IMG/VR virus record: IMGVR_UViG_3300031565_000428
Coordinates: 1-21,998 of that record
Length of the DNA stretch: 21,998 nt
Reading direction: 5' to 3' (one strand)
Origin: a virus
The first letter of the stretch is position 1; each line of letters starts with the position of its first letter. The notes under the pieces are model-generated. The model saw only the letters and a list, made by a program, of their open reading frames with translations. It was not told the origin of the DNA and searched no databases. The position numbers and the translations under genes were made by a program. Shown in pieces: positions 1 through 18,412 of this stretch.

Positions 1-3000
1 GTTAATGGTTGGAAAACAAACTCTGGATTCTTGAATGATAGTCTTCAGAGAATTCCGAATAATGAATATTATCAAAATCTTTCATATTCACTTAAATCCA
101 GTGTAGCTTTTGATAAGTGGGATGATGCGGTCAGTAGTCTTGGTCACGTTGCAGGCCTTGCAAAGTTTGCAGATCTAAGAGTAGAATCTACAGAACAAAC
201 CCCAGGTGGTTTAGTTGTAACTTCTGCACAATCTGATGTTGAAGTTGTCATTGATGTCATTAGTGAGTCAAGTATTCATTGTTGGCACGATTTTGATAAC
301 GTATCAGAAAATTCATTTTATGTTGATAGTAATTTAACTTCCGATCAAATTAATTTTGATAATAAAATTCTTGTAGATTATAACGAATCTTTTGGTAATA
401 GGGTTCTGAGTATTGATGATTTCAGTGACACTTTCAACAGTGTTGTAAGATTGGAGAAATACTCTAATGTAGGTGTTTTCCCTACAAGTCATACCTATAA
501 TAAAATTCTTACATATTGTAGAGATCAGGTTCTGACTAACCAGAGACAAATCGAATTTGTCTCTGTTCTTCATGACAATAATACAGCACATATTTCAGAA
601 TATGGTGAGGTTGATAGTGGAAATAATCTGGGCTCATTTGACTTCGTTATAAGTGGTGACCCCACAAAGTGGGAACTAAGATTTTATCCAATCAATTTTG
701 CATACAACTCTTACGATGTCAATACCCTATCATTTAGTATTCTTGACAATATTAGTGGCATAGGTACAACTTCATTCGGTGATATTATTCAAGTTGATAG
801 TACTCATGTCAATGTTTCTGCTGGCACAACTACAACAATTGTCTCCATTCCAAATACTTATAGATCTGCCAAGTTACTTGTACAAATTGAAGATACTAGT
901 AATAACTACTCTGTAGATGAACTTAATTTGGTTCACGATGGAACTGACGTATATTTCTTGGAGTACGGTAATATTTCTACTAATATAACTGGATTTGGTA
1001 CTTTCAATGTTTATGTTGATGGAAGTAATATTGATGTTGATCTCATCCCAAGCGTTGGGGTTGGACTTACTGTCAATACGTCTATTATTGCTACCTCCGA
1101 TAATACTGGTGTTGCAGGAACAACTTATCTAAACAGTGCAAAACTAGATTCTAAATTTACTTCAATCGCTGCATCTGGTTCTCCCACCGCAAATACAATC
1201 GCTAGTTACTCTGGAATAACAGAAGCTGGTTACCATATTGTTACTGTTGAAGATACTACTAACAACGAATATGAATCATTTGAAGTTATCACACTTCAAT
1301 CTGTTACTACTCCATCTGAGTTTGTTGAATATGCAAACGTTAAGAGTGGTGGTTCTCTAGGTCAAGTTGGTATTGATACGACTAGTGGTACTCTTAATCT
1401 TACATATACACCTAATGCAAGTATTAATGCTGAGGTAAGAGTATTCACTATTGGAATGGAACCTTCTACTGATAGTGGTAGACCAGATCTTATCAATTTG
1501 AATAATTTGCGTATTATCGGTGATGAAGAAACTTACATAGGAACTTTACTTGATCTTGCAACATCATTTGACCTGAAGCATGAGGGTGATCAGATTTTCT
1601 TGAGAGGATTTGATGGTAGTGATCCTGGAATCGTTTCAACAACAAATAATAGTATATCCATTCCAAATCACTTCTTTGTAACTGGTGAGGAAGTTGTTTA
1701 TAGTTCTCCTGGTGCAGGAACAACTGCAGCAATTGGTATTGCTGCAACAACAGTTCCTGGTATCGGTCTTACTGACAAGTTACCAACAACTCTATATGTC
1801 GTTGCTCCAAATAGTAAGGATCTTAAGTTTGCCACTACTAGTGAAAATGCTCTGAAACTTGATCCAGTTGTTCTAAGTATCGGATCTACTGGTATTGGTG
1901 CAGGACATAGTATTACTGCAACAAAACAGAATCAGAAGGTTCTTCTTGCAGTTGATAATATTATCCAATCACCAATTGTTTCTTTTGGTATTACAACAAC
2001 TCTCGCACAAGATGTTGTATTCCAACAGGACATCCTACTTACAGGTATCACTTCAATCTTCACTGGCGATAACCTTCGTATTGGTGATGAGATTGTTACT
2101 GTCGCATCTGTTGGAGTTGGTAATACAACATCAATCAATGTTCGTAGAGGAAGACTAGGAACCTTAAGAGGATCACACTCTGCTGGTGATCTAGTCGAAA
2201 AACTAAGTGGTGAGTATAATATTATTGGAAACACCTTGAACTTTGCATCTGCACCTAAAGGCACAGAGCCAGTTGGTGTCACTACAGCAGAAAATCCTGA
2301 TGAAACTGATTGGACTGGTATTACCAGTTACTCATCCTTCCAAGGAAGATCGTTTATAAGATCTGGTCTTATAAATTCGACCAATGAAACATACTATCAA
2401 AATTATATCTATGATAATATTTCTGATCAGTTCACTGGTATTAGAAGTGAATTTAGTATGAAAGTTGGTGGTTCTGATGTTATTGGTATTGCGACACAAA
2501 ATCCATTTGTTATTATTAACGGCATCTTCCAACAACCTACGGGAAATCAGCCACCTTCACTTCAAGTTGGTGATTATAGAATGGCCGAAAATACTGGTGT
2601 TACCAGTATCACATTCACTGGTAATAATGGTCTTCCTACTGGTTATGATCCAAATAATGGCGAGTATCCAATTGGTGGTCTGATGGTTTCCGTTGGGTCT
2701 TCTAATGGATTTGGATATCAGCCTCTTGTTTCTGCTGGTGGAACCGTAACTGTTTCTGCTACTGGAACAATTACCAATGTCAGTATCGCAAATTCTGGTT
2801 CTGGTTATAGATCTGGTATTCAAACTGTTGTTAATGTTGGTGTTCAGACTTATAGTACAGGTGTTCCTAATATTGAATTTATTGGAACTGCCGCGGTAAG
2901 TGGTGGCCATATTGTAAGTGTTGCAATCACAAATCCAGGTGTAGGATACACTGGAACAAATCTTCCAGATCTTGTATTTGATGAACCACTGAGTTATGAT

Positions 3001-4773
3001 AATATTCCTTTGAGTTACTCACCTGGTTATGTTGGTTCTGGCCAAAGTGCAACTGTTGATATTGTAGTTGGTCAAGGTTCTAGTGTTATTAGTTTCACAC
3101 TTAGAAGTTATGGATTTGGTTATGGTAATGGTGAGAGACTTACAATTGAATCTGGTGGAACTACTGGTATTCCTACTGATCCAAGTGTAACATTTGAAAA
3201 CTTCCAACTTCTGATCGATGAAGTTTATGATGATAAGTTCAACTCTTGGTCTGTTGGAGAATTAGAGGTTCTCGATACTCTTGATAATGAGTTTGATGGT
3301 CAGAAGACTAACTTCCAAATAACACTTAATGAAGACCCATTTACAATTGTTGCTGCAAAAGGTTCTCTTGTTGATGTTGAACAAACTTTAATTGTCTTCA
3401 TCAATGATATACTACAAGTTCCTGGAGGTGCATATATCTTCAAGGGTGGTAGTATCATTCAATTTACTGAGGCACCTAAGGTAGGTGATACATCTAAGAT
3501 TTTGTTCTATAAAGGAACCGGTAGTGTTGATGTTAGATTCGTTGATATTCTAGAAACTGTCAAACCTGGTGATAGTCTTGACATTGACAATAACCCAGAA
3601 CTTGGTCAGGGTATTAGTCTTGAAGAAGATTTGAGAATAGTTACTGACATTATCACTATTGATTCTGTATTCACCAATCCTTATAGTGGTTCAGGTATTA
3701 CAACTGACGCAAATCTCTTAAGACCTGTTACCTGGTGTAAACAACTTGTCGATAAGATTATTGATGGTGAGGTTGTTGGTAAGGACAGAACTCATTATGA
3801 GCCTCTGATCTACCCTTCATCCTATCTGATTCAACCAGTAAGTTTGGCATCAACCGTTGCATATGTTGATTCAGTAAGACCTCTTTATGGGGCAGAGAAC
3901 GAAGCGACTACAAGATCCTTCCAAAACAGCATTAACATTGTATCACAAAATACTTTGGTTGGAGCAACTGCTGCAGCAATTGTTTCTTCCGCAGGAACAA
4001 TTACTTCTGTCAACATCACCAATCCTGGAATTGGTTATACAGTTGCACCACAGGTCGTCATTTCTACACCTGTAGGAATTGGATTGACACAGAGGGCATC
4101 TGCAACCGCAACTGTCTCTGGTGGATCGGTCAATACAATCACAGTTGTAAATCCTGGAGCAGGTTATACATCTTCCAATCCACCAGTTGTTCTTATTGAA
4201 ACCCCAGAAGTTGTTAGTGAATTAATTCCTATCAATTCCTACAGTGGAGATTATGGAACCATTGTTGGTTTCAATACTACAAAGGTTGGTTCACAAAACA
4301 AATACATATTTGACCTCTTTATTCCAGAAGATTCATTTATGAGGGATGGATATTTGATTGGAACTGGTATTACAGTCAGTACAATTAATGTTGGTGATTA
4401 TCTAACTGTATTTGATACTAATATTGACGCTGGGGGATCATTTAATACACAGGACACCACGTCCAATGTTGTTGGAACTGCCATTACTTACTCTGACGCA
4501 GTCTATCAGGTTGCGGCAGTATCGACAGAAATGATCACCGTTACTGGTTATGGTATTACAGCTGTCAGAAGAATTACAACAAATGTTGGTTCTATTGGTA
4601 GTATTAGTTATGGATCAACTGCTACAGGACAATATAGTTGGGGTAAGATTCTCTTTAATACAAGAACAGGAATTGAGACATTTACTGCATATACATCGAA
4701 TGGATATACAGGAATATCAACTTCTGGTCTTGTTAGTAGAAATAGTCCTCTTAAATCAGACAACTATGTCTAA
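1..4773 (+). CDS. Giant beta-rich baseplate/tail structural protein at the gene 7 position (5' truncated)
   Basis: The reading frame is open from base 1, so the gene begins upstream of the window; the TTG at 31 is not taken as a start. About 1590 residues are visible. The beginning (motif YYQNLSYSLKS, near 73-105) resembles a segment I associate with large cyanophage wedge/tail proteins next to gp8. Three related beta units follow (about 550-1460) with the pattern ED-x-x-NN-x-Y and E-Y-[GA]-[EN]. Fibre-type motifs are seen at about 2505-2540 (NGIFQQP) and 3391-3450 (VFINDILQVPGGAY). Five N-x-G-x-G-Y-like modules lie at 2740-4167. The tail contains YSWGKI and AYTSNGYTGI. No membrane segment or enzyme motif is seen. 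The position before gp8 matches T4 gene 7 (wedge initiator), but I see no convincing gp7 similarity. A structural role is well supported; the exact wedge assignment is inference. Confidence 0.8.
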   Translation, partial: VNGWKTNSGFLNDSLQRIPNNEYYQNLSYSLKSSVAFDKWDDAVSSLGHVAGLAKFADLRVESTEQTPGGLVVTSAQSDVEVVIDVISESSIHCWHDFDNVSENSFYVDSNLTSDQINFDNKILVDYNESFGNRVLSIDDFSDTFNSVVRLEKYSNVGVFPTSHTYNKILTYCRDQVLTNQRQIEFVSVLHDNNTAHISEYGEVDSGNNLGSFDFVISGDPTKWELRFYPINFAYNSYDVNTLSFSILDNISGIGTTSFGDIIQVDSTHVNVSAGTTTTIVSIPNTYRSAKLLVQIEDTSNNYSVDELNLVHDGTDVYFLEYGNISTNITGFGTFNVYVDGSNIDVDLIPSVGVGLTVNTSIIATSDNTGVAGTTYLNSAKLDSKFTSIAASGSPTANTIASYSGITEAGYHIVTVEDTTNNEYESFEVITLQSVTTPSEFVEYANVKSGGSLGQVGIDTTSGTLNLTYTPNASINAEVRVFTIGMEPSTDSGRPDLINLNNLRIIGDEETYIGTLLDLATSFDLKHEGDQIFLRGFDGSDPGIVSTTNNSISIPNHFFVTGEEVVYSSPGAGTTAAIGIAATTVPGIGLTDKLPTTLYVVAPNSKDLKFATTSENALKLDPVVLSIGSTGIGAGHSITATKQNQKVLLAVDNIIQSPIVSFGITTTLAQDVVFQQDILLTGITSIFTGDNLRIGDEIVTVASVGVGNTTSINVRRGRLGTLRGSHSAGDLVEKLSGEYNIIGNTLNFASAPKGTEPVGVTTAENPDETDWTGITSYSSFQGRSFIRSGLINSTNETYYQNYIYDNISDQFTGIRSEFSMKVGGSDVIGIATQNPFVIINGIFQQPTGNQPPSLQVGDYRMAENTGVTSITFTGNNGLPTGYDPNNGEYPIGGLMVSVGSSNGFGYQPLVSAGGTVTVSATGTITNVSIANSGSGYRSGIQTVVNVGVQTYSTGVPNIEFIGTAAVSGGHIVSVAITNPGVGYTGTNLPDLVFDEPLSYDNIPLSYSPGYVGSGQSATVDIVVGQGSSVISFTLRSYGFGYGNGERLTIESGGTTGIPTDPSVTFENFQLLIDEVYDDKFNSWSVGELEVLDTLDNEFDGQKTNFQITLNEDPFTIVAAKGSLVDVEQTLIVFINDILQVPGGAYIFKGGSIIQFTEAPKVGDTSKILFYKGTGSVDVRFVDILETVKPGDSLDIDNNPELGQGISLEEDLRIVTDIITIDSVFTNPYSGSGITTDANLLRPVTWCKQLVDKIIDGEVVGKDRTHYEPLIYPSSYLIQPVSLASTVAYVDSVRPLYGAENEATTRSFQNSINIVSQNTLVGATAAAIVSSAGTITSVNITNPGIGYTVAPQVVISTPVGIGLTQRASATATVSGGSVNTITVVNPGAGYTSSNPPVVLIETPEVVSELIPINSYSGDYGTIVGFNTTKVGSQNKYIFDLFIPEDSFMRDGYLIGTGITVSTINVGDYLTVFDTNIDAGGSFNTQDTTSNVVGTAITYSDAVYQVAAVSTEMITVTGYGITAVRRITTNVGSIGSISYGSTATGQYSWGKILFNTRTGIETFTAYTSNGYTGISTSGLVSRNSPLKSDNYV
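550..1460 (+). repeat. Three divergent tandem beta units inside the gp7-position protein
   Basis: Approximate units at 550-750, 870-1100 and 1231-1460 each carry a hydrophobic strand, an acidic/Asn turn (HDNN, EDTSNNY, EDTTNNEY), then an E-Y-[GA]-[EN]-[VI] motif, a G-rich turn and a closing strand pair. They are repeats at protein level only; the DNA has diverged. Boundaries are estimates by eye. Confidence 0.55.
2740..4167 (+). repeat. Five N-x-G-x-G-Y beta modules in the gp7-position protein
   Basis: Copies end near 2808 (ANSGSGY), 2949 (TNPGVGY), 3123 (RSYGFGY), 4038 (TNPGIGY) and 4167 (VNPGAGY). Each is preceded by an alternating hydrophobic strand of the type G-x-I-x-x-V-x-I and, further back, an A-x-A-x-V stretch. 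The copies fall in two clusters separated by about 900 bases of other sequence. The same module occurs in gp8, the DUF4815-type protein and gp14. Confidence 0.65.
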
Positions 4774-4776
4774 ATA
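4770..4776 (+). promoter_or_regulatory. T4-late-like promoter motif CTAAATA over the stop codon
   Basis: CTAAATA overlaps the TAA stop (4771-4773) of the upstream gene. It matches T4 late TATAAATA in its last six bases, and the marine T4-like late motif as I remember it. It lies 104 bases before the gp8 start. Function is inferred from motif and position only. Confidence 0.4.
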
Positions 4777-4880
4777 AGTTTATAATGGATTAGAGTGATA
4801 TTGTGTCAGTTAAGGGGCAACCTACTGTTGAAAGAAAACGATTTTATTTAACTAACTAAATAACAAAAAGTCCTAACAAA
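4774..4880 (+). other. 107-base spacer between the gp7-position gene and gp8
   Basis: This is the longest non-coding stretch in the window. It holds no credible small ORF. It carries an imperfect hairpin at 4807-4827 (CAGT and AGG pairing with CCT and ACTG, a two-base bulge, loop GGCAA) followed by an AT-rich stretch without a clean T-run, and a late-promoter-like motif at 4856-4862. The hairpin is too weak to call a terminator. Confidence 0.5.
4856..4862 (+). promoter_or_regulatory. T4-late-like promoter motif CTAAATA upstream of gp8
   Basis: CTAAATA ends 18 bases before the gp8 ATG at 4881, a spacing that would give a short leader. It is the better placed of the two motifs in this spacer. 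No strong Shine-Dalgarno is visible between it and the ATG. Confidence 0.5.
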
Positions 4881-6437
4881 ATGGCAGCAATAATTACTGA
4901 TCAACTTAGAATATTGAATGCTAAGAATTTTGTTGCCGGTATCCAGTCCAGCTCAAACTCTTATTATACATTCATTGGTATTCCTAATGCAACTGATTAT
5001 CAATCGAACTGGGATTCTAATCCTCCCACTCCGATTGATAGTTTTGAAACCTACAGTAACACATGGGATTCAATGCTTGCGTTGAAAAAAATCAATGCAA
5101 GTGATGTAAGTCAAGTTGTTAGGAAAGTAACCTGGACATCGGGTACTACCTATGACATGTACCGTAATGATATTAGTAGAAATAATCCTTCACAACCTTC
5201 GGGTTCGTTTGACTTATATTCTGCTAATTATTATGTAATGAATAGTGATTATAGAGTCTATATTTGTCTCTATAATGGTGCTGACCCCGAAAACAACTTT
5301 GTTGGTAGTCCTTCTCTGGACGAACCAACTTTCACTGATCTAGAACCAAGAGAGGCGGGTAGTAGTGGTGATGGTTACATTTGGAAATACCTTTATACCA
5401 TTAGCCCAAGTCAGGCAATTAAGTTTGATTCGACTAACTATATTCCTGTTCCTAATGATTGGTATACAAACACTAAAGATTCTCCGATAAGAGATAATGC
5501 TGCAAACAGTGGCCAATTAAAGGTCGTCACAATCAGAAACCGCGGTGTTGGTATTGGTACTGCCAATAGAACATATACTAGAGTCCCTATTAAGGGCGAT
5601 GGTAATGGTGCAGAAGCAACCATTGTTATCAACAATGACTCTAAAGTAGAAAGTATTAATATTTCCAAAGGAGGTTCTGGATATACCTTTGGTTCTGTTG
5701 ATTGGGAATCTGGTGGAGTTCCTACTGGTACAACTTTACCAATTTTTAATGTAATTGTCCCACCACAAGGTGGTCATGGTGCTGATATCTATAGAGAACT
5801 AGGTGCATATAACGTTCTGACATATTCTAGATTTGAAAATGATACTGAAAATCCAGATTTTATCACTGGTAACCAGTTTGCGTCTGTAGGACTTGTAGAA
5901 AATCCATATACACAGGGTTCAAGTTCAAATCTTACACTTGATAAGGCCAGTGCAGTATATGCTCTTAGATTAACTGGTACTGGTTATAGTTCAGCAACAT
6001 TTACTCAGGACGCATACATCACTCAAACAGTTGGTCTTGGATCAACTGCTGTTGGTAGAGTTGTTTCATATGATCAAGTTACTGGTGTTCTGAAGTACTG
6101 GCAGGATAAGTCAACTGCAGGTTTTAGTACCAATGGTTCATTAAATCCTGATCCAACATATGGATTTAATATGAATAGATTTACTAGTAATACTACTACT
6201 GGTGGTAGTATTACGATTGTTGGAGGAAGTGCTAACTTGGGTATTGACACAGTATTTACCGGTGTTTCGACGGTTCTAAATAGTAGGACATATTATCTTG
6301 GTCAGTCCTTCACTAATGGTGTTTCACAACCAGAGTCTCAAAAGTATTCTGGAAACATTATTTTCCTTGATAACAGACCTTCCGTAACAAGGTCTTCGTC
6401 ACAGAAAGAAGATGTAAAGATTATCTTGCAGTTCTAA
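4881..6437 (+). CDS. gp8: Baseplate wedge protein gp8
   Basis: A structural protein of the baseplate wedge. It is recognised by similarity to T4 gp8 in the central GDGYIWKYLYTI motif (residues about 164-175), followed by an acidic/aromatic segment ending in YIPVP, and in the C-terminal end with GNIIFLDNRPSV and KEDVKIILQF (about 491-518), which lines up with the T4 GEMIYMENRPP and INILFTF ending. It has 518 residues against 334 in T4. Much of the excess lies between the central motif and the C-terminal block and includes a GGSGY module near residues 255-268 and further beta segments. The ATG at 4881 gives the start MAAIITDQLRILNAKNF; an 18-base gap from a late-like motif supports it. The stop is six bases before the next ATG, so the next gene is probably co-transcribed. 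Confidence 0.92.
   Translation: MAAIITDQLRILNAKNFVAGIQSSSNSYYTFIGIPNATDYQSNWDSNPPTPIDSFETYSNTWDSMLALKKINASDVSQVVRKVTWTSGTTYDMYRNDISRNNPSQPSGSFDLYSANYYVMNSDYRVYICLYNGADPENNFVGSPSLDEPTFTDLEPREAGSSGDGYIWKYLYTISPSQAIKFDSTNYIPVPNDWYTNTKDSPIRDNAANSGQLKVVTIRNRGVGIGTANRTYTRVPIKGDGNGAEATIVINNDSKVESINISKGGSGYTFGSVDWESGGVPTGTTLPIFNVIVPPQGGHGADIYRELGAYNVLTYSRFENDTENPDFITGNQFASVGLVENPYTQGSSSNLTLDKASAVYALRLTGTGYSSATFTQDAYITQTVGLGSTAVGRVVSYDQVTGVLKYWQDKSTAGFSTNGSLNPDPTYGFNMNRFTSNTTTGGSITIVGGSANLGIDTVFTGVSTVLNSRTYYLGQSFTNGVSQPESQKYSGNIIFLDNRPSVTRSSSQKEDVKIILQF
5521..5690 (+). repeat. N-x-G-x-G-Y type module inserted in gp8
   Basis: This stretch encodes a first strand with NRGVGIG, then GDGNGAEATIV, then KVESINISKGGSGY. 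The order A-x-A-x-V, G/D-x-V, strand, G-x-G-Y matches the modules in the gp7-position protein and gp14. It lies in the region where gp8 is longer than its T4 relative. Confidence 0.55.
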
Positions 6438-6443
6438 AGAATT

Positions 6444-9400
6444 ATGCCACAGGAAACTAATCTCAACGTTGCTCCTTATTTTGATGATTTCGATCCTCAG
6501 AGTAACTACTATAAGGTATTGTTCAAACCTGGATATCCTGTCCAGGCCAGGGAACTTAATAATCTACAGTCCATTCTTCAGAATCAAGTTGAAGATGTGG
6601 GAGATCACCTGTTTAAAGAAGGTGCTCAGGTAATTCCTGGTAACGTAACTTATAACTCAACATTCTACGCTATCCAGATTCAGGAAGAATTTCTTGGAAT
6701 TCCTGTTGCGCTATATCTTGACCAGTTGATTGGGCAGAAGATTAGTGGTAGAGATTCTGGTGTAACCGCAAAAGTTATTACATATATCACAAATAAAGAG
6801 TCAGAGAGAGGAAATTATACTCTATATGTTACATATTTTGATTCTGCAAGTACAGATGCTGTAACTGAGACTTTCTTTGATAATGAAGTTCTGGTAACAG
6901 AAGTCAATATTAACTATGCAACCACGTTCATCTCTGCCGGTGAAGGTTTTGCAAATACACTTACAACAAATGCCTCTGCCAAGGGTTCAGCATTTACTCT
7001 GAACAATGGTGTGTACTTTTTGAGAGGTACTTTTGTTGATGTGTATGATCAAATTTTGATTCTTGATCAATATTCAAACAAACCAAACTACAGAATTGGT
7101 CTACAAGTATCAGAAAGTATTATTTCTTCTGATGTAGATCCAACTCTCACAGATAATGCCCAAGGTTTTAACAATTATAGTGCTCCAGGGGCAGATCGCT
7201 TCAAAATTAGTGCAATTCTTGCAAAGAGACCCTTAGACGAATTTGAAGATAGTAACTTTGTTCAGTTATCTGAAGTTATTGGTGGCGAATTAAGATCAGA
7301 TGTCAATAAAACTGAATATAATATTCTGTCTCAAGAACTCGCCAGAAGAACTTATGATGAATCAGGAAATTACTACATTAAAGAGTTTACTACTTCTTTA
7401 AGAGATAGTTTAAATGATGGTGAAGGAAATAGAGGTATTTACGAAGAGGGACAAACCACTGCTCAGGGTAGTGTTCCTAATGAAAACCTTGCAATCTACA
7501 GAATTTCACCTGGTAAGGCATATGTGAAAGGTTTTGAGGTTGAAACCAGATCTACCACTCTCATTGATTGTCCAAAACCAAGAACCACGCGTTTACTTCA
7601 AAATCAAGCCATTAACTTTGGTTTTGGTCCCACCTTTGAAGTTGATACTGTCTTTGGATCTGCAACAATTGGTTTTAATACTTCAAATACTCTAAGTCTC
7701 AGAGATCAAAGAGTCCAAACCAATGGAACCGCTGCTGGTAAGGAAATTGGTGTTGCAAGAATCTATGATTTTGCACTAGAATCGGGTTCTTATGACACTA
7801 CAAACTCAAATCTGAACAAGTGGGATCTTTCACTGTTTGATGTACAAACAAATACAGATCTTACAGTCAATGAGAACGTAACTCTTACACTTCCAACCTT
7901 TATTCAAGGTGAATCTAGTGGTGCTTCTGCATATCTTAGAAGTCCAGTAAGTGCAGGAGCTGCTGTTACTGCATATAATGTAAAAGGTAACTTCTTTATT
8001 GGAGAAAACCTGGTATTTAACGGTGTTAAGGATAATGACAGATATGTAATTGATTCTAGATCATATGGTAACTCTGATATTCAGTCAGTTTATGGTATTG
8101 TTGGTGCAGCAAATACGTTTACTGCCAATATTGTTCCAAAATCTAATTTTGTTATTGGAAATGCAACCTTGACTGCTGGTGATACCGCGACTGGTATCTC
8201 AACTATTACAACTGCAACCACATCCTTTATTGGTATTGCTACTGTTGGTAATCTGGTAAAATACACCACAATTTCTAGTTCGGTTCCTTCTCTTGGTAGA
8301 ATTACTGAGAATAGTGGATCTGCTTTAAAAATTGTCGGTGTTGCTACAGTCACTGGTGTTGTCGAAGGTTCTGTTCCTTCTGTACTTACTAGTGTAAATG
8401 ATCTAGCAATTGTTAATAGTAAGGTTCAAAGAAACTTTGGAAGTGGAAATGAATCCACCAATCAGTCTCTTTATAGTATTTTTCCCAAGAAAAATCTATC
8501 TTCTGTTGATCTTAGTTCTTCTAATCTTGTCATTAGAAAACAGTTCCAAACTTCAATTAGTGCTGAAGGAGAGACTCCAGCAATTGATGCAGGAACAAAT
8601 GAAACCTTCCTACCATTTGATGAAGAGAGATATATTCTTATTCGCTCTAATGGAACCACAGAGGTTCTGACTTCTGATAAGGTTGTTCTTACCAATGGTT
8701 CTACTACTATTCAAATCATTGGTCTTTCTGGTGCAGATTCTGCAGGTTCAATCCTAATCACAACTCTGAGAAAGAGTTCTGTTACTGTCAAGGTTAAGAG
8801 AAAATCAATATCAAATAGTCTTATTGTTGATAAGTCCAAACTTTCTGCATCTGGTACAAATACAGGTTTTGCAGGTACTAGTCTGAATGATGGACTTACC
8901 TTTGGTAACTACCCATTTGGAACCAGAGTTCAAGACTCTGTGATTTCATTGAATGTTCCTGATGTTGTCAAAATTCACGGTATTTTTGAATCTACCAATA
9001 CTAGTCCTGCGCAATCACCAAGTATGGTTCTAGGGTCTCTTGATGGTCCTACAGCAACAACAAATGACCTCATTATAGGTGAGACCATTACTGGTACAAT
9101 CAGTGGTGCAAAAGCTTTTTATCTGACTAGAAAGACTGATACAACTGTTGGATTCATTTATTTGAATGATACTTCTTTTGAGAAGAATGAGGTCGTTCAG
9201 TTCAGTCAATCTGGTGTAAGTGGAATTGTAGGTACATTTGAAGCTGGATCCAGAAACATTACAGATCAATATACATTTGATAATGGTCAAAGAGAGACCA
9301 TTTATGACTACTCCAGACTAATAAGGAAACCAGGTTTTAAATCACCTGTAAGACAGTTAAGAGTGTATTATTCTAAGGCATTCTACGATTCTGCCGACAC

Positions 9401-12400
9401 TGGTGATATCACAGTTGTAAACTCTTATAATTCTTTTGATTATAATGGAGAAATCAATGCTATTGATGGAGTCAGAAATACTGACATAGTTGATGCAAGA
9501 CCAAGAGTAAAAGATTACTCTATCACTGCAAATTCCAGATCTCCACTTGAGTTCTATGGAAGAGATTTTGATGGTGGAGTAACTGGACAACATAGTTCAA
9601 AAAATGTTATTGCATCAGATGAGTCAATGACACTTGATTATAATTATTATCTTGGAAGAGCTGATAGAGTTTATCTTTCTCCAGATGGTGGATTGAGTAT
9701 TAAGTATGGTACTCCATCAGATGATCCAAAACTTCCTGATGAAGTTAGTGGTTCTTTGAATATTGCAAACATATTCCTCCCAGCATATCTTTACACAACA
9801 GAAACTGCAAGAGTGTCTGTTGTACAACATAAGAGATATCAGATGAGAGATATTTCTAAGTTGGAGCAGAGAATTAAGAGTCTTGAGTATTATAGTTCTC
9901 TAAGTTTGATTGAAACTAATACACTAAATCTCTTTGTTCCTGACTCAAATGGTCTGAACAGATTTAAGAGTGGAATCTTTATCGATAACTTCTCTACTTT
10001 GAATCCTCAGGATACTACTATTGGGGTTAAAAATAGTGTTGATCTTAAGAACAGAGTTCTGAGACCATCTCATTATACGACTGCAATCAATCTGGAGGTT
10101 GCATCTACTGCAATTGCAGGAATTGGAACTACAACTCAAGCAAATCAAGATTCCAGATTCGCTGAAATTGTTGCAGAAGGTGTTAAGAGAAAAGGACAAA
10201 CAGTACTTCTTGATTATACAGACACTTCCTGGTTGGTACAACCATTTGCTACTAGAACTGAGAGTGTAACTCCTTACCTGGTACAATTCTGGAATGGTTC
10301 TATTTCTCTTGAACCGGATGTTGATATCTGGATTGATGTTAATAGACTAGAAACCAGAACTGTAGAAAATGAAGGTGCATTTGAGGCAATTGCTTCGGCA
10401 CTTCAAGCAGAAGTCACTACTGCAGAAGATGGATCCAGACTTGGTGTTACTCCTGTTCAGTGGGACTCATGGGAAACTGTCGGTGTCAATGTTGATATTG
10501 ATACAGACAGTACTGGTCAAAGAAGACAACTTTCTAGGGAACAAATTAATCAGGCCGGAATTCGAGCACCATGGGGTGCAACTGGTAATGCAACTACAAT
10601 TAGAAATACCACTTCTCTGGATCAACAGAGAACAGGTTCACAATCAACTGTTACTGAAGTTATCAATAATGAAACTCTTGGTGATAGAGTTGTAAGTAGA
10701 GAACTGGTTCACTTCATCAGATCTCGTAATATTGAAGTTACTGCAAAACGTCTGAAGCCATTCACTCAAGTTTATCCATTCTTTGATGGTGTAGATGTTT
10801 CTAACTTTACCTTCAACAAACTGGTCGAAGTTCAAATGATTAGTGGAACATTTGTAGTGGGTGAGACTGTTAATGGTGAAATGGCTGCAGCCAATAATAC
10901 TGAGAATGTTCAGGCAATAACCTTACCTTCAATTTCATTCAGAGTAGCAACTGCAAATCATAAGTACGGCCCATACAATAATCCATCTGATACTTATGTA
11001 GAGAGTCCATATGATAGGAACAATAATGTTCCTGCTACATATTCAGAAACATCTACAATTTTGAATGTTGATACTTTCAGTCTTCAAAATGAAAATCAAC
11101 CTGAATTTGAGGGTAGAGTTAGACCTGGTATGGTTCTTATTGGTGGTACTAGTGGTGCAACTGCAGTAGTCAATTCTGTTAGATTGGTTACTGATAAACT
11201 TGGTGTATTGATTGGATCATTCAGAGTTCCTAATGTATCTGACCTCAAGAACCCTGTATTTGAAACCGGTAGATCTACCTTCAAACTTACGAATGATCCA
11301 ACTAATAGTCCTATTGAAGGATTCTCAACAACCGCAGGTGAGGAGATCTTCTATTCTGAAGGTAGTATTGACAATACTCAAGAAGTAACACTTTCACTCA
11401 GAAATGCAAGAGTTGAAGTCAACAGTGAGTTTGCCGAAAATAGACAACTATCAGATACTGATACAGGTCTTATTCTAAGTGATGTTACTATTAACCCACC
11501 ACCACCACCACCATCTCCACCATCTCCTCCTTCACCACCGCAACCTCCTGGTCGTGACCCTCTGGCACAGACATTCTTCATTAGTGAAGAAACTGGTATA
11601 TTCATAACAAAAATTGATTTGTTCTTCAGTCAAAAGGATGACACACTTCCTGTTACTGTTCAACTTAGAGAAACTACTATTGGTACTCCAAACCTTACTA
11701 TTCTTCCTTATTCTGAAATTGATGTTGATCCCAAGGATATTAACTTGTCTCTTGATGGAACTGTACCAACAACAGTTGAATTTGAATCGCCTGTATATGT
11801 TGCAGGACTGAAAGAATATTCTGTTGTTCTCTTATCAGATTCTCTAGAGTATAGAGTATGGATTTCTAGACTTGGCGAACCTGACGTTACAACTTTGGGA
11901 TCAGAGTCTGGACAGAAATTGGTATCATCACAACCAATTCTTGGTTCATTATTCAAGTCACAAAACGCATCTGTTTGGACACCAAGTCAGTATGAAGACT
12001 TGAAATTCACTGTTTATAGAGCGAACTTTACAGGACAAGGTTTTGTTGGTTTCTTCAACCCAACACTTCCAACTTCACTTTCTCGTATTTCTAAAGATGC
12101 TATCAGTATCGACTCTAGAAATATTAGTGTAGGTATTGGAACCACACTTCAAGATACAGAACTTGAATTTGGTAATACCATTCTACAGGTAGGTAAAACT
12201 GGTCGTGGAACATTAGTAGGTTATGCAGGATCTGCAACTTCAACACTTACAATTACAAACTCTGGTATTGGTTATACACCTTCTTCAGGTGGTTATACCT
12301 TTGCAGGTGTTGCACTTACTTCAATAACTGGTAATGGACTAAATGCAACTGCTGACATTTATGTTGAAGGTGGTATTGCAGTTGGTGCTACCATTAATAC

Positions 12401-14012
12401 TGGTGGTAAGGGTTACTCAGTTGGTGATGTCTTAAGACCTCTCACTGTTGGTAATACTCAACTTGGAAGAAACATGAAACTCTCAGTTGGTGAGATTTCT
12501 GGTAATAATGAACTTGTTATTGACAATGTTCAGGGTGAGTTTGATACTCTCACACAACTCTCTTATATCAATAAGGTAGGTATTACTACTGTAGTTAATT
12601 CGGGTATTGGTGGAAATGCAATTCCAGTTGCACCAATTAGAATTAATAGTGATGGACTTCATATGCAAGTATTCCAGAGAAATCATGGAATGCATACAAG
12701 AATCAACCGTGTTACTTTAACAGATGTTGCATCTGATGTCTCACCTTCCACTCTGACAGTAAGTTACACTGGAACTGATACTGGACTTATTAGTGTTGGG
12801 AATACAAATGTCTTTGGTCAGTTTGAAGGTGTTGGTGTTGGAACTACTAATCCAGGATATGCCAAGATTGGTAAGGAAATTGTTTCCTATACTGGAGTCG
12901 CCAACAATACTTTGACTGGTATTACTAGAGGTATTGATAATAGTCAGGTAACTAGTCACAGTGTTTCTGACTTGGTTTATAAATATGAACTTGACGGTGT
13001 TTCACTAAGAAGAATTAATAGGACACATAATCTTGGAGATGTGACTAAGGCCAATCCTATTGGGCTTGACTACTATAATGTCAAGATTGATATGGACGAC
13101 ACAGATTATGGTATTGACAGGTCTGCAGGTACCGTTTTTGGATCAAGATACTTTGAAACTAATGCAAAGGCTGGTGGTACTAATGCAAAAGGTACTTACA
13201 ACTTACCTTTCAACCTAATGATTCCTAAGATCAATACTATTGAACCGAAAGGAACTGATGTTGTCATTCAGGTAAGAACCATTTCTGAGACCAGTATTTC
13301 TGGCGGAGAAGCTTCTTATGTTGATAAGGGTTATACAGAAGTCGCAAACTTCAGAAAGAACTACTTTGAAGATCCTAGAATGATTGCTTCTCAGATTAAT
13401 GAGAACACATATCTCACTACTCAACCTGGTAATAAGTCCTTTACTGCAGGTATTAACCTCTTCAGTTCAGACAATAGATTGTCACCAGCAATTGACCTAG
13501 ACAATTCTTCTATTGTATTTGTGACCAACAGAGTCAATGCACCAATTACAAATTATGCAACTGATCCTAGAGTCAATACAACAGTTGATGATCCAAATAA
13601 CTTCACTTATGTAAGTAAGAATGTTCTTTTGGAGAATCCAGCAAGTGGTCTGAAAGTTTATCTTGATGCTTACATCTCTAGATATAATGATGTTAGAGTA
13701 TTCTATGCATTAGATCAAGATGATTCTCTGGCAGATGAGACTGTATTTGTTCCATTCCCTGGTTATGGTAACTTTGATGTCGATGGAAACCTTATCAGTC
13801 AGGTTGACAATGACGGTTCTTCGGACATAAACATTCCTAAGTATGATGACTTTATTGTTCAAAGTCCAGGAATTGACCAATTCAGAGAGTATACATTCAG
13901 TAATGATAATCTTCCTGCATTCAAGTCATTCAGAATCAAGATTATTGGAACATCGACCAACCAGTCAATTGTTCCTCAGTTTAGAAACCTACGTGCAATT
14001 GCTCTAGCATAA
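6444..14012 (+). CDS. Giant DUF4815-type baseplate/fibre structural protein
   Basis: A 2522-residue virion protein. The N-terminus (APYFDDFDP; GYPVQARELNNLQ at residues 30-42) and the block with DNGQRETIYDYSRLIRKPG (about 950-970) match what I know as the DUF4815 phage family. A short helix follows (ISKLEQRIKSLEYY, about 1135-1150), then the conserved-looking LVHFIRSRNIEV and FFDGVDVSNF (about 1420-1455). A proline-rich hinge (residues 1685-1702) leads into an 800-residue C-terminal part starting DPLAQTFF. The C-terminal part carries two GxGY modules (12217-12420), an IGKEIVSY ... RG ... TSHS module (12770-12985), and a closing domain rich in N, D and F. It occupies the interval between gp8 and gp13 where T4 encodes gp9-gp12 and wac, so it may take over the peripheral baseplate and fibre-attachment roles; that is inference. 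No frameshift is seen. Confidence 0.85.
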   Translation: MPQETNLNVAPYFDDFDPQSNYYKVLFKPGYPVQARELNNLQSILQNQVEDVGDHLFKEGAQVIPGNVTYNSTFYAIQIQEEFLGIPVALYLDQLIGQKISGRDSGVTAKVITYITNKESERGNYTLYVTYFDSASTDAVTETFFDNEVLVTEVNINYATTFISAGEGFANTLTTNASAKGSAFTLNNGVYFLRGTFVDVYDQILILDQYSNKPNYRIGLQVSESIISSDVDPTLTDNAQGFNNYSAPGADRFKISAILAKRPLDEFEDSNFVQLSEVIGGELRSDVNKTEYNILSQELARRTYDESGNYYIKEFTTSLRDSLNDGEGNRGIYEEGQTTAQGSVPNENLAIYRISPGKAYVKGFEVETRSTTLIDCPKPRTTRLLQNQAINFGFGPTFEVDTVFGSATIGFNTSNTLSLRDQRVQTNGTAAGKEIGVARIYDFALESGSYDTTNSNLNKWDLSLFDVQTNTDLTVNENVTLTLPTFIQGESSGASAYLRSPVSAGAAVTAYNVKGNFFIGENLVFNGVKDNDRYVIDSRSYGNSDIQSVYGIVGAANTFTANIVPKSNFVIGNATLTAGDTATGISTITTATTSFIGIATVGNLVKYTTISSSVPSLGRITENSGSALKIVGVATVTGVVEGSVPSVLTSVNDLAIVNSKVQRNFGSGNESTNQSLYSIFPKKNLSSVDLSSSNLVIRKQFQTSISAEGETPAIDAGTNETFLPFDEERYILIRSNGTTEVLTSDKVVLTNGSTTIQIIGLSGADSAGSILITTLRKSSVTVKVKRKSISNSLIVDKSKLSASGTNTGFAGTSLNDGLTFGNYPFGTRVQDSVISLNVPDVVKIHGIFESTNTSPAQSPSMVLGSLDGPTATTNDLIIGETITGTISGAKAFYLTRKTDTTVGFIYLNDTSFEKNEVVQFSQSGVSGIVGTFEAGSRNITDQYTFDNGQRETIYDYSRLIRKPGFKSPVRQLRVYYSKAFYDSADTGDITVVNSYNSFDYNGEINAIDGVRNTDIVDARPRVKDYSITANSRSPLEFYGRDFDGGVTGQHSSKNVIASDESMTLDYNYYLGRADRVYLSPDGGLSIKYGTPSDDPKLPDEVSGSLNIANIFLPAYLYTTETARVSVVQHKRYQMRDISKLEQRIKSLEYYSSLSLIETNTLNLFVPDSNGLNRFKSGIFIDNFSTLNPQDTTIGVKNSVDLKNRVLRPSHYTTAINLEVASTAIAGIGTTTQANQDSRFAEIVAEGVKRKGQTVLLDYTDTSWLVQPFATRTESVTPYLVQFWNGSISLEPDVDIWIDVNRLETRTVENEGAFEAIASALQAEVTTAEDGSRLGVTPVQWDSWETVGVNVDIDTDSTGQRRQLSREQINQAGIRAPWGATGNATTIRNTTSLDQQRTGSQSTVTEVINNETLGDRVVSRELVHFIRSRNIEVTAKRLKPFTQVYPFFDGVDVSNFTFNKLVEVQMISGTFVVGETVNGEMAAANNTENVQAITLPSISFRVATANHKYGPYNNPSDTYVESPYDRNNNVPATYSETSTILNVDTFSLQNENQPEFEGRVRPGMVLIGGTSGATAVVNSVRLVTDKLGVLIGSFRVPNVSDLKNPVFETGRSTFKLTNDPTNSPIEGFSTTAGEEIFYSEGSIDNTQEVTLSLRNARVEVNSEFAENRQLSDTDTGLILSDVTINPPPPPPSPPSPPSPPQPPGRDPLAQTFFISEETGIFITKIDLFFSQKDDTLPVTVQLRETTIGTPNLTILPYSEIDVDPKDINLSLDGTVPTTVEFESPVYVAGLKEYSVVLLSDSLEYRVWISRLGEPDVTTLGSESGQKLVSSQPILGSLFKSQNASVWTPSQYEDLKFTVYRANFTGQGFVGFFNPTLPTSLSRISKDAISIDSRNISVGIGTTLQDTELEFGNTILQVGKTGRGTLVGYAGSATSTLTITNSGIGYTPSSGGYTFAGVALTSITGNGLNATADIYVEGGIAVGATINTGGKGYSVGDVLRPLTVGNTQLGRNMKLSVGEISGNNELVIDNVQGEFDTLTQLSYINKVGITTVVNSGIGGNAIPVAPIRINSDGLHMQVFQRNHGMHTRINRVTLTDVASDVSPSTLTVSYTGTDTGLISVGNTNVFGQFEGVGVGTTNPGYAKIGKEIVSYTGVANNTLTGITRGIDNSQVTSHSVSDLVYKYELDGVSLRRINRTHNLGDVTKANPIGLDYYNVKIDMDDTDYGIDRSAGTVFGSRYFETNAKAGGTNAKGTYNLPFNLMIPKINTIEPKGTDVVIQVRTISETSISGGEASYVDKGYTEVANFRKNYFEDPRMIASQINENTYLTTQPGNKSFTAGINLFSSDNRLSPAIDLDNSSIVFVTNRVNAPITNYATDPRVNTTVDDPNNFTYVSKNVLLENPASGLKVYLDAYISRYNDVRVFYALDQDDSLADETVFVPFPGYGNFDVDGNLISQVDNDGSSDINIPKYDDFIVQSPGIDQFREYTFSNDNLPAFKSFRIKIIGTSTNQSIVPQFRNLRAIALA
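11496..11549 (+). repeat. Proline-rich hinge with CCA triplet run in the DUF4815-type protein
   Basis: Six consecutive CCA codons begin an 18-residue segment made only of Pro, Ser and one Gln (six Pro, then S-P-P three times, then Q-P-P). It separates the N-terminal 1684 residues from the C-terminal part beginning DPLAQTFF. Such a segment is expected to be an extended, protease-exposed linker. Confidence 0.85.
12217..12420 (+). repeat. Two N-x-G-x-G-Y modules in the DUF4815-type protein
   Basis: TITNSGIGYT (near 12248-12277) and TINTGGKGYS (near 12391-12420) are separated by a strand rich in A, T and V (NATADIYVEGG). The spacing and order match the modules in gp14 and the gp7-position protein. 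Confidence 0.6.
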
Positions 14013-14013
14013 T

Positions 14014-14241
14014 ATGGACATGTTACCAATTGAAGGTAAGGACGGGTATTTTAGGGATACCCGTTCTAATGCTATAATTAACAAAAATGAAAATGATTTT
14101 AACATGTATATGACAAATCATAAAAAACTTTCTTCTGATAAGGAACGAATCAACGACATTGAAAATGAACTTGGTAGTATTAAGGGTGATTTGAGTGAAA
14201 TTAAGATGATGCTTAATCATTTTATGGACAAACATAAATAG
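14014..14241 (+). CDS. Small conserved-type coiled-coil protein between the giant protein and gp13
   Basis: A 75-residue protein with no assigned function. The first half contains KDGYFRDTRSNAIINKN, a G-x-x-RD-x-x-[ST]-x-A-[IV]-x-N pattern that I associate with small proteins in many T4-like phages. The second half is a textbook heptad series: I46, I49, L53, I56, L60, I63, L67 and F70 fall in exact 3-4 spacing. The start ATG at 14014 is one base after the stop of the giant gene (TAA-T-ATG), which suggests translational coupling; an in-frame ATG at 14020 is the alternative. A stable hairpin lies within the first 20 codons. The position corresponds to T4 wac (fibritin, also a coiled coil), but the protein is far too small to be called that on sequence. 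Confidence 0.8.
   Translation: MDMLPIEGKDGYFRDTRSNAIINKNENDFNMYMTNHKKLSSDKERINDIENELGSIKGDLSEIKMMLNHFMDKHK
14039..14067 (+). other. Perfect-stem RNA hairpin at the start of the 75-aa gene
   Basis: Bases 14039-14049 pair with 14057-14067 (11 pairs with one G-U); the core ACGGGTAT/ATACCCGT is perfect, and the loop is TTTAGGG. It is not followed by a T-run, so it is not a classical intrinsic terminator. It begins 26 bases after the stop of the 7.6-kb gene and 23 bases after the small gene's ATG, so it could affect mRNA stability, processing or translation. Confidence 0.6.
14233..14240 (+). promoter_or_regulatory. T4-late-like promoter motif CATAAATA before gp13
   Basis: CATAAATA overlaps the TAG stop (14239-14241) of the 75-aa gene and ends 20 bases before the gp13 ATG. 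It matches T4 late TATAAATA in seven of eight positions. It would start a gp13-gp14 unit. Confidence 0.55.
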
Positions 14242-14260: not shown

Positions 14261-15133
14261 ATGGCTAAACCCGCTTCTAGACAAGAATTAATTGATTACT
14301 GTAAGAGACAGTTGGGTTATCCTGTCTTGGAGATTAATGTTGCCGATGAACAAATTGAAGATTTGGTTGATGATGCCGTTCAGTTGTTTAATGAAAGACA
14401 TTTTGATGGTGTAAATAAGGTTTTTCTCAAATATCAATTAACTCAAGACGATATTGATAGAGGAAAAGCAAGACCACCTGGTGCTTCAGGAAGTAATCAG
14501 ACAGGAATTGCATCCACAAGTGCAACAACGTCCATTGTTGGGACTGCAACAACGTTCACTTACTACGAAAATAGTAATTTTATACAAGTTCCTGCAGATA
14601 TTATTGGAATTGAAAAGGTTTTTCAGTTCAATAATACTCTTGGATCTGGTATGTTTAATGTAAAATACCAATTTTTCTTAAATGATGTGTTCGGTCTTTG
14701 GGGCGGAGTCACAGCAGCCTCTGGATATGACATGTTGTCATATTCAATGACTATGAGTTACCTGGAAACGATGAATTTCCTCTTAAATACTCACAAACAT
14801 ATCAGATTTAACCAAAGACAAGATAGAATGTATCTTGATATTGACTATGATACTGTATCAGTAGGTGAATTCTTGGTTATTGAGTGCTACAGAGCCATGG
14901 ATGGTACAGATTATACTAGAGTTTGGAATGATTCCTTCCTAAAACCATACCTTACATCCCTAATTAAGAGACAATGGGGCCAAAATATGATGAAATTTCA
15001 AGGTGTTAAGTTACCTGGTGGAATTGAACTGAATGGAAGACAAATGTATGAGGATGCAGAGAAAGAATTAGAAGTAATTAGAGAAAAAATGTCCAATACT
15101 TATGAACTTCCACCGATGGACATGATTGGCTGA
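14261..15133 (+). CDS. gp13: Neck protein gp13 (head completion)
   Basis: gp13 forms part of the neck that closes the portal after DNA packaging and receives the tail. Similarity to T4 gp13 is clear at both ends. The N-terminal helix pair runs from RQELIDYCKRQLG to AVQLFNERHFDG (HFDG at residues 47-50; T4 has YHFDG). The C-terminus has LPGGIELNGRQ (251 onward) followed by an acidic helix and PPMDMIG, against LPGGVTIDGQR and PPFGILVG in T4. It has 290 residues against 309 in T4. A Thr/Ser/Ala-rich stretch around residues 75-105 looks like a loop insertion. The start ATG at 14261 is preceded by an A-rich leader and a late-like motif. gp14 follows directly, as in T4. Confidence 0.93.
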   Translation: MAKPASRQELIDYCKRQLGYPVLEINVADEQIEDLVDDAVQLFNERHFDGVNKVFLKYQLTQDDIDRGKARPPGASGSNQTGIASTSATTSIVGTATTFTYYENSNFIQVPADIIGIEKVFQFNNTLGSGMFNVKYQFFLNDVFGLWGGVTAASGYDMLSYSMTMSYLETMNFLLNTHKHIRFNQRQDRMYLDIDYDTVSVGEFLVIECYRAMDGTDYTRVWNDSFLKPYLTSLIKRQWGQNMMKFQGVKLPGGIELNGRQMYEDAEKELEVIREKMSNTYELPPMDMIG

Positions 15134-15134
15134 T

Positions 15135-17587: not shown

Positions 17588-18016
17588 ATGACTAAAAAGT
17601 ATGATGAATTAGACCAAACTTTTGATGTTTCTTCCACAGAAATAGAAACTACACCAGTAGAGACGGTTGTGGAAAAAAAGATTGAAAAGATAACCTCTCG
17701 TTCCGAAGATATTAAAAAAGACTACGAATACACCAGAGGTAATTTATATTCTATTATTGAAAAGGGACAGGAGGCTATCAATGGTATCTTAGAACTTGCT
17801 CAAGAAAGTGAGATGCCAAGAGCATATGAAGTTGCTGGTCAGTTGATCAAGAACGTAGCAGATGCAACAGATAAGTTACTTACACTTCAACAGAAATTAA
17901 AAGATGTAAGTGAGGAAAAAGACCTTAAGGGTCCAACAACTGTCAATAATGCATTGTTCATTGGTTCTACCGCCGAGTTACAAAAACTGTTGAAACAAAA
18001 CAGTCAAGATAAATAA
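17588..18016 (+). CDS. gp16: Terminase small subunit gp16
   Basis: The small terminase binds concatemeric phage DNA and stimulates the gp17 packaging motor. The protein has 142 residues (T4 gp16 has 164). Its layout matches the T4 protein: an acidic, Thr/Glu-rich, probably disordered N-terminus (1-40); D-Y-x-x-x-R-x-N (45-52); a helical centre with MPRAYEVAGQLI (76-87) and a second helix with a basic end (90-106), comparable to T4 SPRHMEVFATLM; and NALFIGSTAEL (121-131), comparable to T4 NATVFMGSPTEL. No Shine-Dalgarno is evident before the ATG at 17588. In T4 gene 17 follows directly; here other structural genes come next and gp17 is not inside the window. Confidence 0.9.
   Translation: MTKKYDELDQTFDVSSTEIETTPVETVVEKKIEKITSRSEDIKKDYEYTRGNLYSIIEKGQEAINGILELAQESEMPRAYEVAGQLIKNVADATDKLLTLQQKLKDVSEEKDLKGPTTVNNALFIGSTAELQKLLKQNSQDK
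18008..18015 (+). promoter_or_regulatory. T4-late-like promoter motif GATAAATA at the gp16 stop
   Basis: GATAAATA overlaps the TAA stop of gp16 (18014-18016) and ends 16 bases before the ATG of the 111-aa gene. It matches T4 late TATAAATA at seven of eight positions. Part of the match is explained by the Asp-Lys-stop codons, so the assignment is tentative. Confidence 0.45.
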
Positions 18017-18031
18017 CTAAAAAGATAAGAA

Positions 18032-18367
18032 ATGGCTGCCACTCCTGCAATTAACATTGTCATCCCACAAGGGGCAGATTTTAGTGAAGTTTTCACTTCT
18101 ACTAATTCTGATGGATCTCTTTCTAATCTTGTAGGATTTACTGGGATATCCAAGTTAAAAAAATATCCAGACTCACCAATCATTTACAATTTTGCTGTCG
18201 GTATTAATACCATAACATCAAAAGTCTCTATTGCAATGACAGCACCTGTTACCACAAAGCTGTCACCAGGAAGATATCAATATGATGTTGTTTTGACCTC
18301 CTCTACTGGAGCAGTAACAAGAATGGTTGAAGGTTCTGCTATAGTGACAGCAGGTATTTCCACTTAA
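18032..18367 (+). CDS. Small beta-sandwich-like structural protein between gp16 and the fibre-like gene
   Basis: 111 residues, function not assigned. The sequence starts INIVIPQGADFSEVF and has a middle GFTGISKLKKYP. It ends SPGRYQYDVVLTS, then GAVTRMVEGSAIVTAGIST. The closing pattern G-x-Y-x-Y-D-V-x-x-x-S-x-x-G-x-V-x-R-x-x-E-G-x-x-x-V resembles small Ig-like or upper-baseplate-like proteins near neck and tail genes of many tailed phages; this is recalled, not searched. There is no signal peptide or membrane segment. The ATG at 18032 is preceded by an A/G-rich stretch and a late-like motif. Its context suggests a virion or assembly protein. Confidence 0.8.
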   Translation: MAATPAINIVIPQGADFSEVFTSTNSDGSLSNLVGFTGISKLKKYPDSPIIYNFAVGINTITSKVSIAMTAPVTTKLSPGRYQYDVVLTSSTGAVTRMVEGSAIVTAGIST

Positions 18368-18404: not shown

Positions 18405-18412
18405 GATAAATA
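18405..18412 (+). promoter_or_regulatory. T4-late-like motif GATAAATA abutting the fibre ATG
   Basis: GATAAATA ends exactly one base before the ATG at 18413. In T4 late promoters transcription begins a few bases downstream of this motif, which would remove that ATG from the transcript. Either the motif is accidental, or the true start is the in-frame ATG at 18455. Confidence 0.4.

Follow-up and report, generated by a model that had tools for sequence, protein, structure and literature searches.

A long VrlC/DUF4815 baseplate protein between gp8 and gp13 of a marine T4-like phage

Introduction

In phage A511, the gp106 protein makes the baseplate double-layered: two gp106 trimers per fibre are described as pyramids on the proximal part of the tail fibre, one directed toward the capsid and the other downward. 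Those facing the capsid are reported to reorient to the cell once the receptor-binding protein has bound (PMC9863714). For its small companion, gp107, a chaperone function or a place within the pyramid has been suggested (PMC11406892, PMC9863714). In marine phages, VrlC has been reported as one of five proteins shared by 31 pelagimyophage and 4 cyanomyophage genomes, with a link to double-layered baseplates in both groups (PMC7029224), and a baseplate of this type was inferred from VrlC in a T4-like phage of Agrobacterium (PMC6630229). Extracts of PMC11721090 describe Ackermannviridae without gp9-gp12 and propose that VriC forms the prongs, and VriC in Sajous1 was reported with 311 spectra (PMC10892097).

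Marine phages of the T4 type rank among the most abundant viruses of the oceans, and, among the literature matches listed, we noticed none with a cryo-EM baseplate structure for a T4-like cyanophage from the sea. The window analyzed here, i.e., the whole stretch of DNA, is a virus record of 21,998 bases. A first-pass annotation had pointed to a single 2522-aa protein at the place where T4 carries genes 9, 10, 11, 12, and wac, and had suggested that the functions of gp9-gp12 may be fused in this one chain. Whether such a protein is labeled VrlC instead of a fused gp9-gp12 matters, as the VrlC label indicates to structural biologists what kind of protein to look for at the edge of the baseplate.

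Results

Gene order at the locus

All features described here lie on the plus strand. The window opens with the C-terminal 1590 aa of a large protein preceding gp8 (1..4773), the counterpart of which is annotated as gp7 or baseplate wedge initiator in related records: it matches phrog_2885 ("baseplate wedge subunit") with an E-value of 0 and is 46% identical to the Synechococcus phage RN05-S protein annotated as baseplate wedge initiator. An interval in which no gene was found (4774..4880), the gp7-gp8 slot, separates it from gp8 (4881..6437), a 518-aa baseplate wedge subunit (phrog_438, E 4.7e-159; Pfam Phage-Gp8, E 6e-13) whose profile scored 97.2% against T4 gp8. The 2522-aa open reading frame follows at 6444..14012, with an ATG start and no internal stops, and is succeeded by a 75-aa ORF (14014..14241; phrog_473, E 8.6e-19) and by gp13, the head-tail adaptor (Ad2; 14261..15133; phrog_211, E 7.4e-45), downstream of which gp14, gp15, and gp16 appear in turn. 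ORFs and profiles thus confirm that, unlike in T4, only two genes stand between gp8 and gp13. In position, after a wedge protein and before a small gene, the large protein agrees with its counterparts in A511 and the staphylococcal phage, but the profiles do not show gp8 to be related to A511 gp105 (hhalign, 2-16%).

A longer, near-identical twin contig (L058) encodes a 99.96% identical protein in unchanged gene order, which makes an assembly accident unlikely. RN05-S likewise has one large gene and a small ORF before gp13, S-CAM22 and P-RSM6 carry additional large genes after the small ORF and before gp13, and S-SM2 and S-SCSM1 have at least one extra small ORF ahead of gp13. The ATAAATA motif occurred 4 times against 8.04 expected, i.e., less often than by chance, so that a reading of T4-like late promoters is without statistical support, and a tRNA search found none.

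Family assignment of the 2522-aa protein

The 2522-aa protein is a VrlC/DUF4815 baseplate protein of a marine T4-like phage and kin of A511 gp106 and phage 812 ORF65. Its match to phrog_358 spans residues 1-2522 (2024.7 bits), and the Pfam DUF4815 model scored 186.5 bits against a curated cut-off of 30. This match comes in three pieces (6474..6683, E 1.5e-13; 6981..7616, E 3.3e-21; 9609..10346, E 2.1e-24), which bears out the DUF4815-type region of the first-pass annotation; NCBIfam listed no model for the protein. By tblastn against annotated phage records, 1531 records matched, 392 of them with ≥80% cover of the protein. Among the best 60 of these 1531, all 16 with ≥80% cover were cyanophages, and phages of other bacteria, including Ackermannviridae and Herelleviridae, came after them with partial cover. 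RN05-S was the best isolate among the matches listed, with 55.5% identity over the full length; its orthologue is annotated "virulence associated protein", while the S-SM2 and S-SCSM1 records already label theirs VrlC and the S-SCSM1 record tags it as a virion protein. DUF4815 was found in all 11 cyanophage isolate genomes that we compared (RN05-S, S-CAM22, P-RSM6, Sf-FS3, ACG-2014f, S-RIM2, MED4-213, ACG-2014e, S-SM2, S-SCSM1, and ACG-2014d) and not in T4.

The link to better-described phages was obtained with several methods. A blastp search with the protein matched PhaxI VriC (E 2.66e-52) and A511 gp106 (E 2.02e-23), and one matching sequence was found among solved structures, the phage 812 ORF65 "DUF4815 domain-containing protein" (phmmer, E 1.8e-39). 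We then compared profiles with hhalign, using a cyanophage-only profile of 77 rows (76 relatives and the window protein, Ackermannviridae excluded): A511 gp106 scored 100% (E 9.2e-41), the staphylococcal ORF65-type protein 99.9% (E 2.7e-37), and PhaxI VriC 100% (E 3E-127). A larger profile that includes three Ackermannviridae rows gave E 2.9e-53 for A511 gp106 and E 2E-52 for the staphylococcal protein; since one of these rows derives from a contig with a 100% match to PhaxI, the PhaxI score with this profile arises partly by construction. Reverse searches led back to phrog_358 for A511 gp106 (E 4.7e-180), the staphylococcal ORF65-type protein (2.7e-171), and PhaxI VriC (0).

No sign of T4 gp9-gp12 in the chain

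The suggested fusion of gp9, gp10, gp11, and gp12 functions would fit the location between gp8 and gp13 and the modular, beta-rich chain. It would also fit the 11 isolate genomes, in which neither GP11 (with T4 as a positive control in one of two search sets) nor Fibritin_C (with T4 as positive control) was matched. The Collar domain was found in two of these isolates (ACG-2014f and ACG-2014e), away from the VrlC locus. Against this stands the profile comparison: the profile with Ackermannviridae rows scored 0.1-0.5% against each of T4 gp7, gp8, gp9, gp10, gp11, gp12, and wac, and the cyanophage-only profile 0.0-0.3% against T4 gp7, gp9-gp12, and wac, while the positive controls, A511 gp106 and the ORF65-type protein, reached 99.9-100%. 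Within the 2522-aa protein, T4_gp9_10_N (PF07880) was not detected at E ≤ 1 by hmmscan and scored 0.2% by hhalign, and GP11, Collar, and Fibritin_C gave no match at E ≤ 1 and 0.1-0.5% by hhalign; searches of the whole window record for these three domains likewise found none.

Three genomes with no match to PF07880 or PF08677, two of Herelleviridae and one of Ackermannviridae, have the same VrlC core, and tail spikes of Ackermannviridae are reported, in extracts of PMC11721090, to bear gp10-like adaptor domains beside VriC. Moreover, genes with the gp9/10 N-terminal domain (gp9/10-N) coexist with VrlC in 7 of the 11 isolates and at 18 of 44 loci (see below), which contradicts the gp9/10 part of the proposal. 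On the profile comparison with working controls and this coexistence, we reject the fusion of gp9-gp12, which now seems extremely improbable.

Predicted structure

AlphaFold models were made as single chains for residues 1-1200 and 1330-2522 separately, from alignments of 56 rows (55 of the 79 relatives and the window protein, <88% identity). The two half models had mean pLDDT of 80.2 and 76.8 and pTM of 0.65 and 0.48. For both halves, the top Foldseek matches were baseplate chains of phage 812, taken from entries before as well as after contraction, and ORF65 was the top row in VIA for the N-terminal half (Z 15.7, 305 residues, rmsd 6.4) as well as for the C-terminal half (Z 20.2, 212 residues, rmsd 4.3). 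The match of the N-terminal half is conformation-dependent, as post-contraction ORF65 chains reached Z 15.6-15.7 and the pre-contraction chain just Z 7.0, at rank 15. Several ORF65 alignments had a large rmsd (6.4-18.8), and therefore only parts of ORF65 and the models superpose. None of the best 50 rows of each structure search was recognized as gp9-gp12, a result with which the presence of such a fold would still be compatible.

Two candidate host-facing domains were delimited in the C-terminal half. The first is a lectin-like domain, here called the DPLAQ domain, at residues 1703-1862 (11550..12029): the model of this range aligned with the Cwp84 lectin-like domain (Z 11.8, rmsd 3.3, 135 aligned), and residues 1705-1882 matched ORF65 by phmmer (70.6 bits). 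A Cwp84 lectin-like match has likewise been reported for the VrlC of Deep-Blue and Vp4 (PMC11406892). The second is a putative jelly-roll-like domain at the C-terminus (residues 2263-2522; 13230..14009), where rows of Eph-receptor ligand-binding (jelly-roll) domains were obtained at Z 6-7, in a range (Z < 8) that the tool rates as common. In the alignment to chain 9euf_0, which extends to the C-terminus of the C-terminal-half model, model residues 374-1193 correspond to chain residues 790-1151 (Z 18.9, rmsd 18.8 over 252), and these spans suggest an insertion of ~400 residues separating the two domains.

Internal modules and added length

At 2522 aa, the window protein is longer than A511 gp106 with its 1151 aa. 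Blastp stretches shared with gp106 cover window residues 6-60, 184-388, 1064-1302, and 1705-1870, and the extra residues lie between these four stretches and beyond the last. The chain also contains a repeated motif, G-x-x-S-G-[AVT]-x-A, at residues 102, 489, 884, and 1567; elsewhere in the window, gp14 has a single copy and the 8 other proteins inspected have none. We delimited four "SGA" modules around these sites, at 6681..6848 (module 1), 7851..8078 (module 2), 9006..9263 (module 3), and 11091..11363 (module 4). Modules 1, 2, and 4 are based on the pattern and on module-to-module hhalign, with hand-chosen borders, and module 3, a predicted barrel, also on a structure match. The modules matched each other in 6 of 6 profile pairs, from 59.3% for the weakest (102-489) to 96.6% for the best (489-884; E 5.5e-10, 52 columns). 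Overall, the modular, beta-rich build that had been described for the protein was borne out.

Module 3 bears on another reading, namely that VrlC replaces T4 gp7. Zaragoza-Solas et al. 2020 reportedly made this proposal for cyano- and pelagimyophages. The published form of the proposal (PMC7029224) could draw on the fold of the module 3 barrel, which aligned at Z 8.0 (rmsd 1.9, 70 aligned) with residues 767-845 of 5iv5_BJ, a T4 baseplate chain of 1004 residues that is probably gp7, judging from its length and the range, and at Z 8.1 with the equivalent part of a chain from a Klebsiella phage. It could also draw on the protein before gp8, in whose profile T4 gp7 is not recognizable by hhalign (0.3%). 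However, the barrel is a common fold, with aIF2-gamma rows aligning to the same residues at Z 5.7-5.9, and module 3 showed nothing against T4 gp7 by sequence (hhalign, 0.1%). Relatives, furthermore, keep a separate large gp7 or wedge initiator before gp8, and the window counterpart matches phrog_2885, to which T4 gp7 itself has a weak match (E 1.3e-4 across 29 residues). With a separate wedge-subunit protein before gp8, replacement of gp7 by VrlC is not supported, and we regard it as highly doubtful.

The proline hinge that had been noted in the protein is present as a proline-rich linker at residues 1685-1702 (11496..11549), and a tandem repeat with a 9-base unit (11497-11539) encodes part of it. 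It is lineage-specific: ≥6 prolines were found in this segment in just 21 of the 80 aligned proteins, and each of the 34 proteins of a clade at 33% identity has a single proline there. A proline hinge as a functional feature of the family was rejected on this basis.

A gp7-gp8 slot for gp9/10-N genes

Next, we looked at where gp9/10-N genes occur. PF07880 genes accompany VrlC in 7 of the 11 isolate genomes, and by coordinates each of the seven genomes has one upstream of gp8, separated from it by no more than one annotated gene; Sf-FS3 has a second, distant PF07880 match. In the four others (ACG-2014f, MED4-213, ACG-2014e, and S-SM2), no gp9/10-N gene was detected by PF07880 and our profile A3, which was built from 20 of 23 seeds (the two rows from T4 were left out, as was L018, which nearly duplicates L028), so a separate socket is not found in every VrlC-bearing isolate. 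Weak, partial A3 matches in two VrlC-bearing contigs (G003 and G006), mostly without the motif end, were not counted. The occurrence of gp9-gp12 homologues as separate genes, which would speak against the fusion, thus holds for gp9/10-N in relatives. For the genome of the window itself, PF07880, phrog_677, and profile A3 detected no gp9/10-N gene in the 22 kb of the window or the 32 kb of its twin.

Among the 80 loci, 44 were resolvable, i.e., both the gp7 end and gp8 were visible. The gp7-gp8 slot contained a gp9/10-N gene in 18 of these, was empty (gap of <150 bases) in 26, including the window's twin, and in no case held other content only. One contig (L017) carries a 631-aa gp9/10-N gene in the slot, with VrlC (residues 1-2411) 94% and gp8 96% identical to those of the window, while L011 and L014 (86% identical) have a slot without a gp9/10-N gene, and in three loci (L021, L022, and L062) the gene is just 115-138 aa long. 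The sequence TAAATAA slightly upstream of ATGGCA is common to four junctions from three sequences, a shared stretch that could help exchange of the slot gene.

The co-occurrence of VrlC and gp9/10-N speaks against the view that either simply stands in for the other. One tentative reading, which we consider possible at less than even chance, is a hybrid baseplate that combines a movable VrlC pyramid of Herelleviridae type with sockets of T4 type: the slot gene would be gained, lost, or reduced to a stub, and host range would shift through the fibre plugged in while the VrlC core stays constant. The gp7-gp8 slot is in any event a concrete site at which to look for host-range change. In the literature searched on related subjects, we saw no mention of the gp9/10-N slot polymorphism.

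The small partner gene

The small proteins encoded after VrlC in the window, RN05-S, P-RSM6, and S-CAM22 carry [FYH]-R-D-x-x-S-x-A near the N-terminus, similar to YRDPHSGA in A511 gp107 and VRDPYSQA in the staphylococcal small protein. A small ORF was present in 72 of 80 records, with the strict motif in 44 of the 72. As the PhaxI small protein matches phrog_473 (E 2.2e-5), homology of the partner gains weak support for Ackermannviridae. A511 gp107 and the staphylococcal small protein match phrog_1074, not phrog_473, and hhalign gave 61.9% over 9 columns for gp107, 1.5% for the staphylococcal protein, and 2.9% for the PhaxI one; for the Herelleviridae small proteins, the resemblance thus appears limited to the shared motif. 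Searches of solved structures found none for the staphylococcal small protein (E ≤ 0.01) and rows at chance level for the window's 75-aa protein. By eye, the 75-aa protein looks coiled-coil-like.

Discussion

Taken together, these results place the window protein in a known kind, since VrlC has already been reported in cyano- and pelagimyophages and is named in the S-SM2 and S-SCSM1 records. New here are the cassette-like gp7-gp8 slot, the four internal SGA modules, and the small downstream partner and its shared RDxxS motif. As a whole, we consider it probable that the protein is a long cyanophage VrlC, the outer protein of a "double-layered" baseplate, with a mechanism carried over from A511. 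The observed part of this explanation comprises homology in the family core, the top-ranking fold match of each modeled half, and the gene neighborhood. In the same explanation, the extra length would consist of inserted beta modules rather than gp9-gp12, and fibre sockets, where present, would be separate gp9/10-N proteins from an exchangeable gene around gp7. The role at the baseplate periphery proposed in the first-pass annotation is likely right, given that the family sits at the baseplate edge in other phages.

By analogy with A511, the window protein would form multimers, placed at the wedge edges, with the 75-aa product possibly serving as its chaperone or cap. Upon receptor binding, these multimers would swing down toward the host, where the lectin-like and C-terminal domains may touch cell-surface sugars, and this contact could help commit the tail to contraction. 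This mechanism was described in a phage that infects Gram-positive bacteria, and its transfer here is an assumption.

A protein of the same family might instead be a static scaffold of the baseplate arm, which carries the fibres and neither moves nor binds the host itself. A511 offers a precedent for such a division of labor, as gp106 trimers are described there as linked to gp105 via gp104, with gp108 as the receptor-binding protein (PMC9863714), and in the phage 812 entries ORF65 and the receptor-binding protein ORF68 are likewise distinct chains. Conservation across the 80 aligned proteins (the alignment took 79 of 80 hand-picked full-length matches from 178 loci, one being removed for a stop or unclear residue) points the same way, being strongest at residues 1-60 and 181-390 and not in the C-terminal domains, the DPLAQ domain excepted. 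A static role is at odds, however, with the lectin-like domain predicted in the window protein and with the published reorientation of A511 gp106 (PMC9863714), and we judge it unlikely.

The movable outer VrlC protein remains our preferred reading, and it can be set against the known systems as follows. T4 gp9, gp10, gp11, gp12, and wac resemble the window protein in their place in the gene order and in their presumed place at the baseplate edge, but have no detectable sequence similarity to it, and gp9/10-N is separate in relatives. PhaxI VriC (F371_gp047, the proposed "prongs") is homologous to the window protein, yet has 1612 aa and adjoins a tail-spike cluster, unlike the window gene. The VrlC/VriC proteins of S-SM2, S-SCSM1, and RN05-S are like the window protein in DUF4815 and in their place after gp8, and differ from it in sequence and in the length of the proline linker. 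A511 gp106 and phage 812 ORF65, finally, share homologous stretches and the fold of both halves with the window protein, and in A511 and the related staphylococcal phage a small gene follows the DUF4815 gene, as it does in the window.

Candidate fibre genes and ATAAATA motifs

Downstream of gp16, a gene for a 111-aa protein (18032-18367; phrog_3304, L-shaped tail fibre assembly) is followed by one for a 1167-aa fibre-like protein (18413-21916; partial match to phrog_1469), in which a tract of 10 GGT copies (19910-19939) encodes a glycine run. We consider these two proteins a candidate pair of fibre and helper. The T4-like late promoter motif ATAAATA was found ahead of the start of gp13 (14234-14240), of the 111-aa ORF (18009-18015) and of the 1167-aa ORF (18406-18412); three of its four matches in the window lie at most ~25 bases upstream of a gene start, yet the total of four is lower than expected by chance.

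Variation around gp8 and in gp14

The protein preceding gp8 (1-4773) is named gp7 in related records, and T4 gp7 was not recognisable in it by profile comparison. The empty interval between these two genes (4774-4880) measured 111 bases in our script, taken from the near-identical longer twin L058, versus 23-83 in the 25 other empty relatives; given this greater length, a former gene, since lost, may have left a vestige there. Three relatives encode short gp9/10-N (fibre-socket) proteins between gp7 and gp8 (L021, 7993-8406; L022, 3112-3456; L062, 8047-8406); at just 115-138 aa, these are apparently sockets without a fibre part.

Finally, gp14 (15126-16550; 474 aa) includes an SGT module resembling the repeated modules of VrlC, the DUF4815 baseplate protein. 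In relatives L010 and L011, gp14 instead reaches 851 aa, and its C-terminal part is therefore variable.
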